Assembly (NCBI GenBank): GCA_026400555.1
Contig: JAPLOW010000047.1
Location: forward strand, 1-33,277
DNA: 33,277 nt
From: Hyphomicrobiales bacterium
Lineage (GTDB): Bacteria; Pseudomonadota; Alphaproteobacteria; Rhizobiales; Beijerinckiaceae
Direction of reading: 5' to 3'
Part shown: positions 25,339 to 32,883 of the stretch, piece after piece
How positions within the stretch are numbered: the stretch's first letter is position 1
Layout: each line of letters begins with the position of its first letter
The notes under the pieces: model-generated
Seen by the model: only the letters and a program-made list of their open reading frames with translations
The model's database searches: none
What the model was told of the DNA's origin: nothing
Translations under genes and position numbers: made by a program

Positions 25339-25494
25339 CGGCTCGCACAGCGCCGCCGAACGCGTCGGCACTGATGAACAGAATCGGCCCTGAACTCATG
25401 CCCGAACCGTCTTTGCTGCATATGCCACCTCCGGCTTCATGAAACACCCACTCTCGGTGTCCACAAACCGGCGGCAGGCCAAAACAACGGCTCA

Positions 25495-25528: not shown

Positions 25529-25567
25529 CTGCCATTTCACAGGTGCATGACGGGTGACGCTCTTCCC

Positions 25568-26764
25568 ATGATCGAATCAACCTTTCCCCCGTCACGAGAG
25601 ATGGCGCTCGCTCGGCTTGCCCAATTCGTTCCGGGTGCGGGTCGACGATATGAACAAGGTCGCAACACGGACGCAGGACCGGATCAACCGAGTGCCGTCT
25701 CCAGGCTTTCTGCCTATCTGCGTTATCGCCTGATCACAGAGCATGAGGTCATCGCGCAGGTGCTGGCTCACCATACATTGCGTGATGCCGAGAAGTTTGT
25801 GCAGGAGGTGCTGTGGCGGACCTACTGGAAAGGCTGGCTGGAACTGCGCCCGTCGGTCTGGCGGCGCTTTCTGGACGAACGTGACCGCCAGCAAGAGGAC
25901 TTTCCCGCCGGTCACGCGATCATCACCGCCGAGAAAGGCCAAACCGGTATCGAGGGTTTCGACGATTGGGCGCGGGAGCTTGTCGAAACGGGTTACCTGC
26001 ACAATCACGCGAGGATGTGGTTCGCTTCCATCTGGATCTTCACCCTTCGCCTGCCCTGGGCTTTGGGCGCAGACTTCTTCTTGCGCCACCTGATCGACGC
26101 GGACACCGCCAGCAACACCTTGTCCTGGCGCTGGGTCGCAGGATTGCAGACCGTGGGAAAGACCTATTTGGCGACAACCGACAATATTGCGCGCCATACC
26201 AATGGACGCTTTGCTCCCAAGGGTCTCGCACGTGAAGCCGTTGCGCTGACGGAGGCCCCGATTGGGGCCATACGCGGCTTGGCGGAACAGGCCTGCCTTG
26301 ATCCGGCGCGGCCTTCAGCCTTGCTCCTCACCCACGAAGACATGCATGCGGAGTCCGCTTTTGCTGACGCCCAAAAGTTCAGTGCAGCCATCGTCGCCAT
26401 AGATCCTGGCTTGTTGTGGGGCGATGGTGCCCGCAGATTCGCGGGTGATGCCGGCGCGGATATCGCAACACGCGCAGCATCCCATTTTGGGTGTGGCACC
26501 AAACGGGTTGGCCAGTTCGACGCACAGACGCTGATCACGGCGTCCCAGACCGCGGGGGTCAGGCAGATCGTGACACCCTATGCACCGGTTGGTCCTGTGG
26601 CGGATGCGCTGGCGCAGCTTGCTCCGGTCCTGGCGCGCGAGGGTATTGCCCTGACCCAGATGCGCCGCCCATGGGACAGCGCCTTCTGGCCTCATGCAAC
26701 CAGGGGTTTCTTTTCGTTCAAGGAGCGGATTCCCGCCATTCTGCAGGAGCGCGGGCTGGCATGA
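25568..26764 (+). CDS. Photolyase/cryptochrome-family protein with FAD domain first and Rossmann-like domain last
   Basis: 398 residues from the ATG at 25568 (MIESTFPPSREMALARL); in-frame ATGs at 25439, 25523 and 25547 precede it but the earlier ones run into the 34-bp element. Residues about 1-230 match the photolyase FAD-binding helical domain: FPPSREMALARL, YLRYRLITEHEV, KFVQEVLWRTYWKGW, GFDDWARELVETGYLHNHARMWFAS and LSWRWVAGLQTVGKTYLATTDNI. Residues about 240-398 look like an alpha/beta domain (SALLLTHEDMHAE, AAIVAIDP, VRQIVTPYAPVGPV, RRPWDSAFWPHATRGFFSFKERIP). In ordinary photolyases the alpha/beta domain comes first. Flavin-dependent DNA repair or light sensing is expected. The stop overlaps the next photolyase gene. 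Confidence 0.82.
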   Translation: MIESTFPPSREMALARLAQFVPGAGRRYEQGRNTDAGPDQPSAVSRLSAYLRYRLITEHEVIAQVLAHHTLRDAEKFVQEVLWRTYWKGWLELRPSVWRRFLDERDRQQEDFPAGHAIITAEKGQTGIEGFDDWARELVETGYLHNHARMWFASIWIFTLRLPWALGADFFLRHLIDADTASNTLSWRWVAGLQTVGKTYLATTDNIARHTNGRFAPKGLAREAVALTEAPIGAIRGLAEQACLDPARPSALLLTHEDMHAESAFADAQKFSAAIVAIDPGLLWGDGARRFAGDAGADIATRAASHFGCGTKRVGQFDAQTLITASQTAGVRQIVTPYAPVGPVADALAQLAPVLAREGIALTQMRRPWDSAFWPHATRGFFSFKERIPAILQERGLA

Positions 26765-28296
26765 CCCGGCCACTCAACATGATCTGGTTCAAGCGGGATC
26801 TGCGCGTGGCCGATCACCGCCCGCTGGCGGAAGCGGCTCGGCGCGGCCCGGTCCTGCCGATCTATATTGTGGAGCGTGATCTCTGGGCCCAGCCGGACGT
26901 ATCAGCGCGGCAGTGGGCTTTTGCGGCAGAGAGCGTGGCCGAACTCCAGCGCGCTCTTGCAGCCCTTGGGCAACCCCTGTGCGTCATGGTGGGTGACGCC
27001 GTCGCCATTTTCCGGGAGATTCACAAACGCCACGGCATCGCTGGTTTGTGGAGCCATGAGGAAACGGGCAACGGCTGGACCTATGGACGGGATCTCGCCG
27101 TGGCCGCATGGGCCAGGGAGAACGGCGTGCCATGGCATGAGCCACGCCAGTTCGGCGTGATCCGACGCCTCAGATCGCGCAACGGCTGGGCGCGCTCATG
27201 GGACAGCACCATGGCCGAACCCATCACCGCGCCGCCCAAGGCGCTACAACCCATTCCCGGTGATTGGCCAACGCAGATCCCGACCGTCTCGGACCTGGGC
27301 CTCGCCCCCGACCCATGCCCATACCGCCAGCCGGGCGGCCGCATGGCGGCGCTGACGACCCTCGAAAGCTTTCTTGGCAAGCGTGGGCGCGACTATCGCT
27401 TTGAGATGTCCAGCCCCGTTACGGCGTTTGATGCGTGCTCGCGCCTGTCGCCCCACCTGACATGGGGCACAGTGTCGATGCGCGAGGTGGCGCAGGCGAC
27501 GGCGAAGCGTCTTCAGGCGATCAGTCTTTTGGATGATCGCGCTTCGAGACACTGGCGTGCTTCGCTGATGTCGTTCAAGGGACGCCAGCACTGGCATTGC
27601 CACTTCATGCAGAAGCTGGAGGATGAGCCCCGGCTTGAATTCGAGAACCTCCATCGCGCATATGACGGTATGCGCCCGGACACGGCCGATTCCCGACGGC
27701 TGCAGGCCTGGTGTGCAGGTGAAACCGGGTTTCCGTTCGTCGACGCCTGCATGCGGGCGCTTCACCAGCATGGATGGATCAACTTCCGGATGCGGGCCAT
27801 GTTGATGTCCTTCGCCAGCTATCACCTTTGGCTGCCATGGCGCGCCAGCGGGCTGCATCTGGCGCGGCAGTTCGTGGATTACGAACCCGGGATTCACTGG
27901 TCGCAGGTCCAGATGCAATCCGGGACAACGGGCATCAACACGATGCGGGTCTACAACCCTGTAAAACAGGGTATCGATCAGGATCCGACCGGAGCCTTCG
28001 TGCGCGCTTATGTGCCTGAGCTGGCTGCGGTGCCTGATGCGTTTATCCACGAACCATGGCGTTGGCCTGCAGCGGGTTCAATGGGCTACCCACAGCCGAT
28101 CGTGGATCATGCAGTTGCCGCAAAGGCGGCGCGCGATGCGCTCTATGCCAGGCGCCGGGGGGCCGGTCATCAAGACGCTGCGCGCGAGATCGCCGCGAAA
28201 CACGGCAGCCGAAAGGCGGGCATACCCATGACCGGGCGGCAGACGAAGGCTAAGCCCAAAATTAGGGAGGTCTCTCAGCTGACATTGGACCTTTGA
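26761..28296 (+). CDS. Deoxyribodipyrimidine photolyase-related protein
   Basis: 511 residues from the ATG at 26761 (ATGA overlap with the preceding gene). Normal domain order: N-terminal antenna-type domain starting NMIWFKRDLRVADHRPLAEAA and reaching about 150, then the FAD domain from about 200 (GRMAALTTLESFLGKRGRDYRFEMSSP, GFPFVDACMRALHQHGWINFRMRAMLMSFASYHLWLPW, MRVYNPVKQGIDQDPTGAFVRAYVPEL). Residues around HWSQVQMQSGTTGINTMR differ from the usual NWQW-type segment of class I photolyases, so it belongs to a divergent subgroup. Light-driven repair of UV dimers is likely; CPD versus 6-4 specificity cannot be assigned. The C-terminus is Lys-rich. Confidence 0.87.
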   Translation: MTRPLNMIWFKRDLRVADHRPLAEAARRGPVLPIYIVERDLWAQPDVSARQWAFAAESVAELQRALAALGQPLCVMVGDAVAIFREIHKRHGIAGLWSHEETGNGWTYGRDLAVAAWARENGVPWHEPRQFGVIRRLRSRNGWARSWDSTMAEPITAPPKALQPIPGDWPTQIPTVSDLGLAPDPCPYRQPGGRMAALTTLESFLGKRGRDYRFEMSSPVTAFDACSRLSPHLTWGTVSMREVAQATAKRLQAISLLDDRASRHWRASLMSFKGRQHWHCHFMQKLEDEPRLEFENLHRAYDGMRPDTADSRRLQAWCAGETGFPFVDACMRALHQHGWINFRMRAMLMSFASYHLWLPWRASGLHLARQFVDYEPGIHWSQVQMQSGTTGINTMRVYNPVKQGIDQDPTGAFVRAYVPELAAVPDAFIHEPWRWPAAGSMGYPQPIVDHAVAAKAARDALYARRRGAGHQDAAREIAAKHGSRKAGIPMTGRQTKAKPKIREVSQLTLDL

Positions 28297-29311: not shown

Positions 29312-29340
29312 TCAAGGAGCGCTGGGTCAGCGCTCCTTGA
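29312..29340 (-). terminator. 12-bp perfect hairpin containing the stop codon of the HlyD-type gene
   Basis: TCAAGGAGCGCT, loop GGGTC, AGCGCTCCTTGA. On the minus strand the stem starts in the last sense codons (FKER) and the TGA stop spans the stem-loop junction. No T-run follows in either direction, so a factor-independent terminator is not certain; mRNA 3'-end protection is an alternative. Confidence 0.6.
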
Positions 29341-30658
29341 AGGCCCGCGCGATCTGATCGCTGAGGGGCTGGACCAGATACCGCACGGCGGAGCGGTCAG
29401 TGGTGCGGATGAACACCTCGGCCTGCATGCCTGCTGCGACCTGGTGGGGGGCAAGACGCTCCAGTTCCTGCGACGGGATGCTGACCCTGATCGTATACAG
29501 GCTGGCGCTGTTCTGGCTGTCGCGTGAGGTGTCGGGCGCCATCCGTGCGACAACGCCATTCAGCTCCGGCTGCATGCGCTGGTTGAAGGCATGCAGCCGC
29601 ACGCGCACCTCCTGCCCGATATGGACAAGATCATAATCGGTGGGCGCGATCCGCGCCTCAAGGGACAGCTGTTCTTCAGTCGGCACAAGCAGCATCAGCG
29701 GCTCGCCGGCATTCAGCACCGCGCCCACCGTGTTGATTGCCAGTTGATGCACCACCCCGCCAATGGGCGCCCGGACATCGAGCCGCCTGAACTGATCCTC
29801 AGCAGCGGCCCGGCGTTCGGCGAGTTCGGCGATGCGGCCTTCCGTCTCGCGCAGGTCGCGCAGCACTTCTGCGCGCCAGTCTGTGTCGATCTGGATGATC
29901 TGCAGCTCGGTTTCTGCGATCTTGCCTTCGGCCTGCGCGATCTGCGCCTCAAGCGCGCCGCGGACGCCTTCGATCAGGGCCGCGTCGCGCTCGAGCGGCG
30001 ACAGCCGGCTCATCTGAACCAGGTTGCGCTGGAACAGCGAGCGCACGGCTTCGAGTTCGCGCGCATTGTGGGCGCCCTCGCGTGTCTTCGCCACCAGTTG
30101 TCCGTTCAGTCCGCTGATTTCGCTGCGCAGCTGCAAGATGCGCTTGACCAGCTGGCTGCGTGTCCCGGCGCGGGCCGCTGTCCGCGATTCCTGGATGCGG
30201 GTCTCCGCGGCCATCACCCTGGCCACGTCCGGATCATCGCTCCGGGCGAGCAGGCTGTTCGGGAAGCGGGGTGCCGGCAGCATGTCGCGCTCGGCCTCGA
30301 GACGTGCGGCGCGGGCGCGGGCGTCCTCGAGTTGCCGGCTGATGATCTGCAGGTTCGCCCCGGCCATGGTCTCGTCAAGGCGCAGCAGCACCTGGCCGGG
30401 CGCAACCCGGTCCCCCTCGCGCACCATGAGCGCGCTGACGATACCGCCGCTCGGGTGCTGGACACGGCGCGCGTTGTTCTCGCTGACAAACACGGCGCTG
30501 GCGATCACGGCGCCGCCCACGGGCATGTAAACGGCCCAGACGCCGACGGTTCCGGCGAACAGGGCAAGTCCGGCATAGCCGGCCCGCGCCAGCTTGCGGG
30601 TCAACGTGAGGTGGCGATGCATCTGACGAGCGGCATCCGGATCCTGATGAGGTGTCAT
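29327..30658 (-). CDS. Type I secretion membrane fusion protein (HlyD/PrsE family)
   Basis: 443 residues. Short cytoplasmic N-terminus, a TM helix at about 26-46, a lipoyl-like half (RRVQHPSGGIVSALMVREGDRVAPGQVLLRLD), a long alpha-helical hairpin about 100-290 with repeated heptads, the second lipoyl half (RLDVRAPIGGVVHQLAINTVGAVLNAGEPLMLLVP) and a beta-barrel ending in GMQAEVFIRTTDRSAVRYLVQPL. This is the PrtE/PrsE layout: it bridges the inner-membrane ABC protein and a TolC-type outer channel. The ATG overlaps the ABC gene stop by 4 bases. No outer-membrane component is in the window. Confidence 0.92.
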   Translation of the reverse strand: MTPHQDPDAARQMHRHLTLTRKLARAGYAGLALFAGTVGVWAVYMPVGGAVIASAVFVSENNARRVQHPSGGIVSALMVREGDRVAPGQVLLRLDETMAGANLQIISRQLEDARARAARLEAERDMLPAPRFPNSLLARSDDPDVARVMAAETRIQESRTAARAGTRSQLVKRILQLRSEISGLNGQLVAKTREGAHNARELEAVRSLFQRNLVQMSRLSPLERDAALIEGVRGALEAQIAQAEGKIAETELQIIQIDTDWRAEVLRDLRETEGRIAELAERRAAAEDQFRRLDVRAPIGGVVHQLAINTVGAVLNAGEPLMLLVPTEEQLSLEARIAPTDYDLVHIGQEVRVRLHAFNQRMQPELNGVVARMAPDTSRDSQNSASLYTIRVSIPSQELERLAPHQVAAGMQAEVFIRTTDRSAVRYLVQPLSDQIARAFKER

Positions 30659-32577
30659 GTCTGCGTCGTGCTTCGTGCTGTTGGGGGGGAGCGCCGGACC
30701 TTCGGGCCAGTATCCGCCGCGCGCAGGGCCAAGGCGACCTGCTGCAGCACCGATGCGGGCGACTGGCTATCGAGCGCGCCCAGTGACGTTGTGATGACGG
30801 GGCCGGGGTTTTCGCTCGCGACTGCGCCGGTTTCGGCGCGGGCAGGGGTCTCATCATCCTGGTGCGGGGCCGCCGCCTGTCCCCGATCAGCGCGGGCCAC
30901 GACGCCGGACTCCCCCAGCACCTCATCGCGGGGACCAAAGCGCGTCAACCGCCCCTCGATCATCATGCCGACCTTGTCGACACCGGCAAGACCGGAGGGG
31001 CGGTGGGTGATGACCACGACAATCCCGCCCCGGGCCCGGATGGCCTTGACGGCGCCGGCAAGCGCCTGGTCTCCCTCGGCGTCGAGGCTCGAATTCGGCT
31101 CGTCAAGTACCACCAGGAAAGGGTCGCCATACAGGGCGCGGGCAAGGGCGATCCGCTGGCGCTGCCCGCCGGACAGGGATGTTCCGCCTTCGCCGACGAC
31201 GGTCTCATAGCCCTCGCGCATGGCGACGATCATGGCATGCGCGGCAGCCATTCTGGTGGCGGCGAGGATCTTCTCGGTGGTCGCCTCAGGATCGAAGCGG
31301 GCGATGTTCTGGGCGATTGTTCCGGGAAACAGCTCCACATCCTGCGGCAGGTAGCCGATCGCTTGCCCGAGCGAGTCCGGATGCCACTGTGTCAGTGCAG
31401 CGCCGTCCAGCCGGATCACGCCGCGTGCCGGCTGCCAGATGCCGACGAGCGCGCGGGCCAGCGTCGATTTTCCGGAACCGGACGGGCCGATCAGCCCGAC
31501 CCCGTCACCCGCGGTGACGGCAAAGCTGATGCCCGCGATGATGGCCTGGCGCCCGCCAGGCGCAATGATTGCCAGATCCTCGACGCGGAGCGAATGCCCC
31601 GGGGGCGGCAGGTCCATGGACAGGGTCCTGGGCTCCGCATCCGGCAGCATCACTTTAAGCCTGCGGTAGCCTTCCCTTGCCGCAATGAACGGTTTGATAT
31701 GCGACACCGCCAGTTCGACCGGCGCAAGCGCGCGCGCGGTCATGATGGAGGCCGCCAGCATCGACCCACCCGACAATTCGCCACGAACGACCAGGTAGCC
31801 TCCCAGCCCGAGCACGGCGGATTGCAGCACGAAGCGGAACATCTTTGCGAAGGAGCCGAGGCCGCCGGTGCGCTCGGTCAGTTTCAGGGTGTCTTCGACG
31901 TGCCGGCCATGGACGGCGTTGAAGCGGGCGGCAAAGGTCGAACGCATCCCCAGTGCAGAAATCGCCTCCGCATTGCGCCGGCCGGCTTCGAGCATGGCGG
32001 TCTGTTCGGCATTGCTCCTGGACGAATCCTGGCCCGGCACCGTGCTCAACCGTTCGGCAATCAATGTCAGCCCCACGATCGTGATCAGCCCGCCGACCGC
32101 AAGCCAGCCCAGCCACGGATGCAGGGCAAAGCAGACGATGATGAACAGCGGTGTGAAGGGCATGTCGATCAGCGCCGTTGGTCCGAGGCTGCCAAGGAAT
32201 GCCCGGATGGCGGCCAGATCGCGGAACGGTGTTAAGGAATCGATCGGACTTGCGCCCTTCAGGGGCGCGTTCATCGCGGCGTGCAGCGTCAGCGGCGACA
32301 GGGTGGCATCGACGCTGCTGCCGATCCGGCCGAGCATCCTCAGCCGGATATGATCAAGCCAGCCCTGCAGGGCATAGGCCGACAGCGCCAGGAGCGAGAT
32401 GCCGACAAGCGTGGGAATGGAGCGGCTGGCAAGGACGCGGTCATAGACCTGCATCATGTAAAGCGAGCCGGTCAGCATCAGCAGGTTGACCACAGCCGAA
32501 AACACGGCGACGTGGACCCAGGCCGCGCGCGTGTCACTCAACGCCCGAACGACGACGTTCCTTGAAGTTCGAGCCAT
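30655..32577 (-). CDS. Type I secretion ABC transporter (PrtD/PrsD family)
   Basis: 640 residues from the ATG at 32577 (MARTSRNVVVRALSDTRAAW); an upstream start at 32694 adds a non-membrane stretch and is unlikely. TM domain about 20-300 (TGSLYMMQVYDRVLASRSIPTL is typical of the PrtD group), then the ATPase with Walker A GPSGSGKS (364-371), signature LSGGQ (468-472), LVVLDEPNSSLD (488-499) and switch H525. There is no C39 peptidase domain, so substrates carry a C-terminal secretion signal. An unusual tail of about 80 residues, low in order and rich in Ala, Ser and Pro, follows the ATPase. No RTX-type substrate gene is nearby. Confidence 0.93.
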   Translation of the reverse strand: MARTSRNVVVRALSDTRAAWVHVAVFSAVVNLLMLTGSLYMMQVYDRVLASRSIPTLVGISLLALSAYALQGWLDHIRLRMLGRIGSSVDATLSPLTLHAAMNAPLKGASPIDSLTPFRDLAAIRAFLGSLGPTALIDMPFTPLFIIVCFALHPWLGWLAVGGLITIVGLTLIAERLSTVPGQDSSRSNAEQTAMLEAGRRNAEAISALGMRSTFAARFNAVHGRHVEDTLKLTERTGGLGSFAKMFRFVLQSAVLGLGGYLVVRGELSGGSMLAASIMTARALAPVELAVSHIKPFIAAREGYRRLKVMLPDAEPRTLSMDLPPPGHSLRVEDLAIIAPGGRQAIIAGISFAVTAGDGVGLIGPSGSGKSTLARALVGIWQPARGVIRLDGAALTQWHPDSLGQAIGYLPQDVELFPGTIAQNIARFDPEATTEKILAATRMAAAHAMIVAMREGYETVVGEGGTSLSGGQRQRIALARALYGDPFLVVLDEPNSSLDAEGDQALAGAVKAIRARGGIVVVITHRPSGLAGVDKVGMMIEGRLTRFGPRDEVLGESGVVARADRGQAAAPHQDDETPARAETGAVASENPGPVITTSLGALDSQSPASVLQQVALALRAADTGPKVRRSPPTARSTTQT

Positions 32578-32883
32578 CGACGCTGCCTTGTCTCGCACAC
32601 ACCGCCCCGCAAACGGGGCCGTCCCGGGAAGGCTAGCGAAAGATGGTGTACAAAGACTTGCCGGAAGGGGTCGAAAGCCGTGCAGGTCGGGCAAAGGCGA
32701 CCCTGCACCTTCGGTCTGTCGCCGCGCACGCCAGGGCTCCAGGCGAGCTGCAGAGATTAGTGTTCGGGGCGATCAGCTGGTCGAATGCCGCCAGCGCCAG
32801 TGCGCCGCCGTCCGCGAAGCGGCCACGGTGCCGGGCCCGCGCAGAAACATCAATCTGCCGCGGCTGGGCCGGAGGCCGCCGCC
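32578..32883. other. Leader/upstream region of the secretion operon up to the IS end
   Basis: About 300 bases. A GCCCCG-CAAA-CGGGGC hairpin (32604-32619) lies in the likely leader of the secretion operon. The remaining frames give unconvincing products on both strands; whatever lay upstream of the operon has been displaced by the IS21-family insertion. No clear promoter identified. Confidence 0.4.

Follow-up and report, generated by a model that had tools for sequence, protein, structure and literature searches.

An inverted-topology photolyase gene overlapping the gene for a photolyase-like protein with an altered active site in a Hyphomicrobiales bacterium

The photolyases of the NewPHL/SPL class, for which Emmerich et al. 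2020 is reportedly the source, act on CPDs in single-stranded DNA. A passage in PMC13274461 ascribes to this class both an 'inverted domain topology' and CPD repair in ssDNA, and a passage in PMC8948257 describes a Trp dyad in the NewPHL of Dinoroseobacter shibae. In the portion of Haney et al. 2022 (PMC9426592) that deals with these proteins, Phr7 is equated with the ssDNA CPD photolyase of D. shibae and Methylobacterium mesophilicum. Related arrangements are described there for Phr4+Phr5 and Phr6 of Synechococcus and Cyanobium, in which a FAD domain comes first and an antenna-like domain second, encoded by two ORFs or by one; when the Phr4/Phr5 pair is placed in E. coli, UV-C survival rises in a light-independent manner, but UV-B survival is not raised. 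In excerpts of this literature, short and inverted photolyases are discussed as lying near the origin of the photolyase/cryptochrome family.

The window analysed here, a stretch of 33,277 nucleotides from a Hyphomicrobiales bacterium, contains a gene with such an inverted layout. Its product, P0001 (398 aa; 25568..26764, plus strand), was typed as an inverted-topology photolyase (NewPHL/SPL type) from Pfam, phmmer, an AlphaFold2 model, and its relatives. The N-terminal FAD-binding helical domain (residues 1-225; 25568..26242, plus strand) is recognised by PF03441, the photolyase FAD domain, which matches residues 77-200 (E 1.6e-19; profile positions 1-126 of 203), and by phmmer, which aligns residues 5-201 with residues 199-396 of 1dnp, the FAD half of E. 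coli photolyase (E 1.8e-18). It is followed by an alpha/beta (HUP-like) domain, probably antenna-related (residues 238-398; 26279..26761, plus strand), that was delimited using AlphaFold2, Foldseek, and profiles. At E values up to 1, Pfam finds neither PF00875 in P0001 nor any family in its C-terminal part; among the 31 relatives of P0001 in alignment A1, PF03441 is the sole family present in more than one member. Pfam, phmmer, and the AlphaFold2 model together confirm the reversed order proposed in the initial annotation, with the FAD domain at the N-terminus and an alpha/beta domain of about 160 residues at the C-terminus. (It should be noted that other in-frame starts exist, an ATG at 25547 and the longest-ORF start at 25439; a start near 25568 is the commonest among the relatives.)

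The reversed order had been singled out as an oddity. It is real, but the class that displays it has already been described (NewPHL/SPL, Phr7); what the locus leaves open concerns the clade of P0002 and the pair that it repeatedly forms with P0001. P0001 itself very probably belongs to this known inverted-topology class, which includes Phr7 of Prochlorococcus; NewPHL and Phr7 are compared here by their descriptions. Like the NewPHL/SPL proteins, it has an N-terminal catalytic FAD domain, an additional C-terminal domain, and a Trp dyad, and no difference emerged in the features tested; its relatives are also found in roseobacters (L119, L127, L135) and in a Methylobacterium MAG (L100). It likewise resembles Phr7, as portrayed in part of Haney et al. 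2022, in having an N-terminal FAD domain and a C-terminal domain and in lacking Fe-S cysteines. Phr4+Phr5 and Phr6 share the order of domains; however, Phr4/Phr6 have four Fe-S cysteines according to a section of PMC9426592, whereas the only cysteines of P0001 are C243 and C309, both in the C-terminal domain, so P0001 does not belong with the Fe-S proteins Phr4/Phr6. The light-independent UV-C protection seen with Phr4/Phr5 also argues against an easy transfer of function to P0001. Compared with the class I CPD photolyase of E. coli (1dnp), P0001 has the same FAD domain and catalytic residues, but the opposite domain order and no third Trp at the aligned position. The PDB matches listed for P0001 include no inverted photolyase.

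The residues expected of a CPD repair enzyme are present. E80, W83, R84, N146, R149, and M150 of P0001 align with E. coli E274, W277, R278, N341, R344, and M345, and W164, D177, D179, N183, W187, and W189 align with W359, D372, D374, N378, W382, and W384. All but W189 are invariant in 32/32 rows of A1, and W189 is kept in at least 90% of these 32 rows. The Trp triad is represented by W164 and W187, and the position aligned with W306 is not Trp; there is no Trp between residues 98 and 134, a loop in which 3 of the 32 A1 rows carry one. By alignment, then, P0001 has the Trp dyad, instead of a triad, that characterises NewPHL/SPL proteins. With these class I CPD-repair residues, the N-terminal half of P0001 would bind FAD; light would excite FADH-, an electron would be donated to a pyrimidine dimer, and the dimer would be split. 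Like the substrate reported for other NewPHLs, that of P0001 would probably be a CPD in single-stranded DNA. That P0001 is instead a light sensor (cryptochrome) is highly improbable: a signalling role would sit well with the additional domain and with the linked second photolyase-like gene, but across the 32 rows the positions for CPD repair do not vary at E80, W83, N146, and M150 and hardly vary at W189, and characterised members of the inverted class repair ssDNA CPDs according to the relevant parts of later papers.

As a putative repair enzyme, P0001 is also distinct from DASH cryptochromes, scoring 68.1 bits against TIGR02765, under the cut-off of 317.05 bits. No DASH protein over that cut-off is present in 385 genomes of the taxonomic class (four fall below it, at 255-263 bits), which leaves a place for a different ssDNA enzyme. 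This result in the 385 genomes fits the view that DASH is replaced by inverted photolyases. The genome from which the window comes encodes three FAD_binding_7 proteins, namely P0001, P0002, and one on contig C136, and one PF04244 protein, a member of the family that includes Fe-S (6-4) photolyases; absences from this genome mean little, because its completeness is 85%.

Relatives of P0001 are widespread, although the full layout is less so. Matches at E 0.001 occur in 224/385 genomes of the class (own genome included), and most of those listed cover the FAD domain alone. Full-length relatives with the C-terminal domain, laid out like P0001, were found in 27 of 36 class loci fetched with flanks, one per genome, and thus in at least 27/384 other genomes; this is a lower bound, as the strong matches were fetched and the weaker ones left unopened. 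Because the layout recurs in at least 27/384 other sampled genomes of the class, it is more than chance. In the wider genome collection at least 573 stretches encode a P0001 relative, and the best 80 of these, which were kept, come from Alphaproteobacteria, Gammaproteobacteria, and Microbacteriaceae, together with single MAGs labelled cyanobacterium and Eremiobacterota. (The locus labelled uncultured cyanobacterium, L083, has a 65% identical relative that groups with Novosphingobium L081 and is probably misbinned.) Of 194 genomes from the phylum of genome G385, five besides G385 (1.6-1.9 Mb in size) encode full-length relatives 371-384 aa long, and many larger ones have a FAD-domain ORF of about 280 residues instead. 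Several of the cyanobacterial Phr4-like FAD-domain ORFs (L161-L174, L182-L201) carry a C-terminal cysteine motif. Nine pattern matches in viral contigs include no P0001 relative, and 10 phage records match P0001 over 51-57% of its length at the FAD domain, with none matching over 80%.

The C-terminal domain of P0001 had been proposed to be a moved antenna domain, and the evidence supports this, although not conclusively. The AlphaFold2 model of P0001, built from 79 sequences, has a pLDDT of 95.8 and a pTM of 0.92, and the C-terminal domain folded alone has a pLDDT of 93.5. In the model the domain consists of strands 250-255, 273-277, 310-314, 333-337, and 361-365 with helices between them, a pattern that we take to be that of the photolyase antenna domain. 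Foldseek against the PDB, run on the domain alone, puts the class II photolyase chain 8oy6_B at rank 1 (TMq 0.63, prob 1.00, E 3e-3); of 1430 matches with E up to 10, the best 50 include 19 photolyases or cryptochromes (TMq 0.46-0.66). Between these stand universal stress proteins, PPAT, and TcdA at TMq 0.38-0.50, one of them as high as rank 3; no match lies at or below E 0.001. The domain could accordingly be imagined as a HUP/Rossmann-like domain that was recruited independently. Universal stress proteins and PPAT do share its fold, its sequence profile retrieves no photolyase from the PDB, and a direct profile match to the antenna domain of the P0002 family is absent: hhalign gives 3% probability over 22 columns with 79 rows of the P0001 domain and 12% over 76 columns with 116 rows. 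(The antenna profile used in these comparisons has 27 rows, two of which are ordinary photolyases.) On these 3% and 12% values, a collinear homology of the two domains read by eye was not accepted until a bridge through a third set of proteins was found.

The bridge is provided by separate ORFs of 137-163 residues near cyanobacterial FAD-only ORFs, of which 17 occur within the fetched flanks of the 34 loci searched (L161-L174, L182-L201), the remaining loci showing none there, and which are taken to be Phr5. The Phr5-like profile matches the antenna domain of the P0002 family with 94.7% probability (128 columns, score 52.8) and the C-terminal domain of P0001 with 77% probability (105-116 columns, scores 35.6-35.9). 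In control comparisons, the best of 60 column shuffles per pair reached no more than 21.3, and reversed alignments and FAD-domain controls no more than 18.8. Independent recruitment is rather unlikely against this bridge, which stands above the shuffled controls, and against the TMq of 0.46-0.66 for photolyases/cryptochromes versus 0.38-0.50 for the universal stress proteins, PPAT, and TcdA listed. The proposal of a moved antenna domain therefore stands on the rank-1 fold match and the Phr5-like bridge, and fails on direct profile comparison; fold and bridge offer good, though not conclusive, support for an antenna origin, as judged from profiles and a predicted structure. The C-terminal domain of P0001 would thus be a relocated alpha/beta antenna domain, probably packed on the FAD domain.

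Downstream of P0001, and overlapping it, lies the gene for P0002 (511 aa; 26761..28296, plus strand), which Pfam and a family alignment identify as a photolyase-like protein of normal domain order that belongs to a distinct clade with an altered active site. PF00875 matches residues 8-127 (E 3.6e-24) and PF03441 residues 275-461 (E 4.2e-63), and profile alignment relates its FAD domain to that of P0001 with 99.5% probability. The equivalents of E. coli Glu274, Asn341, Met345, Asn378, Trp382, and Trp384 are R275, F342, A346, H379, V383, and M385. (For the Glu274 helix, a pairwise phmmer alignment of P0002 to 1dnp differs from the family alignment, which includes two ordinary photolyases, and from the profile alignment; the latter two were used.) These replacements hold across the family, whose alignment has 25 rows, two of them from the same genome, with 24 readable at the active-site positions. 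Glu274 is replaced by Arg, Asn341 by Phe, Asn378 by His, and Trp384 by Met in 24/24 readable rows; the Met345 position is Ala in 23 of 24; and the Trp382 position is Val in 17, Ala, Met, Thr, Cys, or Leu in 7, and Trp in 0/24. Trp277 and Trp359 are kept in all 24. Thus no readable row retains the Glu or the Asn of CPD photolyases, either Trp of the WxW motif, or the flavin-N5 Asn. The atypical substrate/FAD segment remarked on when the gene was first read is therefore borne out, and it is uniform in the family rows examined.

Two assignments of P0002 were rejected. Despite the antenna-then-FAD order, the active site rules out a class I CPD photolyase; as a DASH cryptochrome P0002 scores 139.7 bits, far under the TIGR02765 cut-off of 317.05 bits. 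(A passage in PMC9178010 names a 'DASH-like' group among eight photolyase groups.) P0002 would be a second flavoprotein of photolyase-like type, one that is probably translated together with P0001; its role probably lies in the same response to light/UV, either on a different substrate or in sensing. Searches of the open-licence literature found no description of the P0002 clade or of a P0001-P0002 tandem.

The two genes share the ATGA at 26761..26764 (plus strand), in which, as read from the sequence and as first annotated, the P0001 stop overlaps the P0002 start; translational coupling may follow from this arrangement. Part of PMC9649867 describes a similar UV-B operon in Synechococcus sp. 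PCC 7335, in which two overlapping photolyase genes are co-transcribed and UV-B induced. By its description there, the downstream gene encodes a PhrSph98 homologue that is putatively bifunctional for CPD/(6-4), and the operon offers a precedent for tandems like that of P0001 and P0002.

A P0002-matching photolyase is found in the flank of 19/80 named loci, which are the closest relatives, and so a biased sample, some of them cut by contig ends. A P0002-type gene immediately follows the P0001-type gene on the same strand in 11, immediately precedes it in 4, and is 1.6 kb away in 3; the flank photolyase of L142 is an ordinary one, 32% identical to P0002. Novosphingobium fuchskuhlense (L094), which can be cultured, is among the relatives that carry the pair. 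Taking the longest-ORF start, 6 of the 11 downstream pairs also have a 4-base overlap. In a rapidly built tree with 108 relatives of P0001, downstream pairing requires two changes even when judged by well-supported branches, and the upstream arrangement forms one separate cluster (the test is against the other labelled rows only, 86 unlabelled rows being uncounted). In the class sample, a P0002-type gene lies within the fetched flank of 5/27 P0001-type genes. At E 1e-60, such a gene occurs in 16/27 P0001-type genomes versus 25/357 others (Fisher p 8e-11, kinship and habitat ignored) and in 9/15 P0001-type families. (The genomes with short FAD-only relatives, 10 in all, are a mixed set in which two ORFs have 451 and 562 aa, and their 7/10 co-occurrence with P0002 is not evidence.) The association is recurrent, arising in different branches and in different orders, but it is found in a minority of relatives and is not obligatory.

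The earlier suggestion that the two proteins act together is borne out in part. P0001 and P0002 could form one functional unit, with P0002 as a partner or a photosensor/antenna and with co-translation assembling the complex. Such a unit would fit the ATGA overlap, the 11/80 downstream and 4/80 upstream placements with the 4-base overlap in 6/11, the DUF2256-like small ORF at the junction in 3/4 upstream cases, the two tree changes for downstream pairing and the separate upstream cluster, and the co-occurrence of 16/27 versus 25/357. However, a P0002-type gene was not seen at E 1e-60 in 11/27 P0001-type genomes; five annotated plasmid neighbourhoods of relatives have a P0001-type gene but no P0002, as does an ORF search for L033-L037, and in one Tritonibacter and one Vibrio plasmid the P0002-type gene has no P0001-type gene annotated beside it; moreover, the Fisher test is blind to kinship and the tree test omits the 86 unlabelled rows. 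What stands of the suggestion is thus a linkage that recurs, and a single functional unit of this sort is decidedly unlikely. It is equally doubtful that the pair makes up a unit for photorepair or photosensing in which an inverted photolyase and a member of an uncharacterised photolyase-like class with the uniform non-CPD active site are coupled in translation and have been repeatedly assembled in evolution.

Several other genes are found around the pair and its relatives. Just after P0002, 28307-29028 (plus strand) shows what seems to be the remains of a type II toxin-antitoxin pair: a PhdYeFM-type antitoxin is matched weakly (E 0.0057) and, after it, a PIN domain (E 0.0026) over only residues 8-57 of 136, both below cut-off. 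On the minus strand, 29327-32694 contains two genes that, by eye from the ORF list, resemble a type I secretion ABC transporter and an HlyD-like adaptor. A small ORF with a zinc-ribbon motif, which we take to be DUF2256-like (a name that appears in plasmid annotation), is present in 12/116 loci scanned, including L044, L059, L062, L084, L147, and L153, in which no P0002-type gene was detected; the open-licence literature yielded nothing that links DUF2256 with photolyase. Genes for UbiB/AarF kinases lie near the inverted photolyase in plasmids of Ruegeria, Peteryoungia, and Asticcacaulis (L034, L035, L036, L177), and DUF3429 lies near it in Asticcacaulis and Novosphingobium L033. In all seven Deinococcus plasmid records listed (H76-H82), the gene annotation that covers the P0002-type stretch is uracil-DNA glycosylase.

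For the photolyase/cryptochrome family, an antenna-derived C-terminal domain in P0001 would favour domain rearrangement over separate acquisition, which bears on the origin of the family. The recurrent neighbour P0002, in turn, points to a photolyase-like clade whose uniformly altered active site can be assayed directly.
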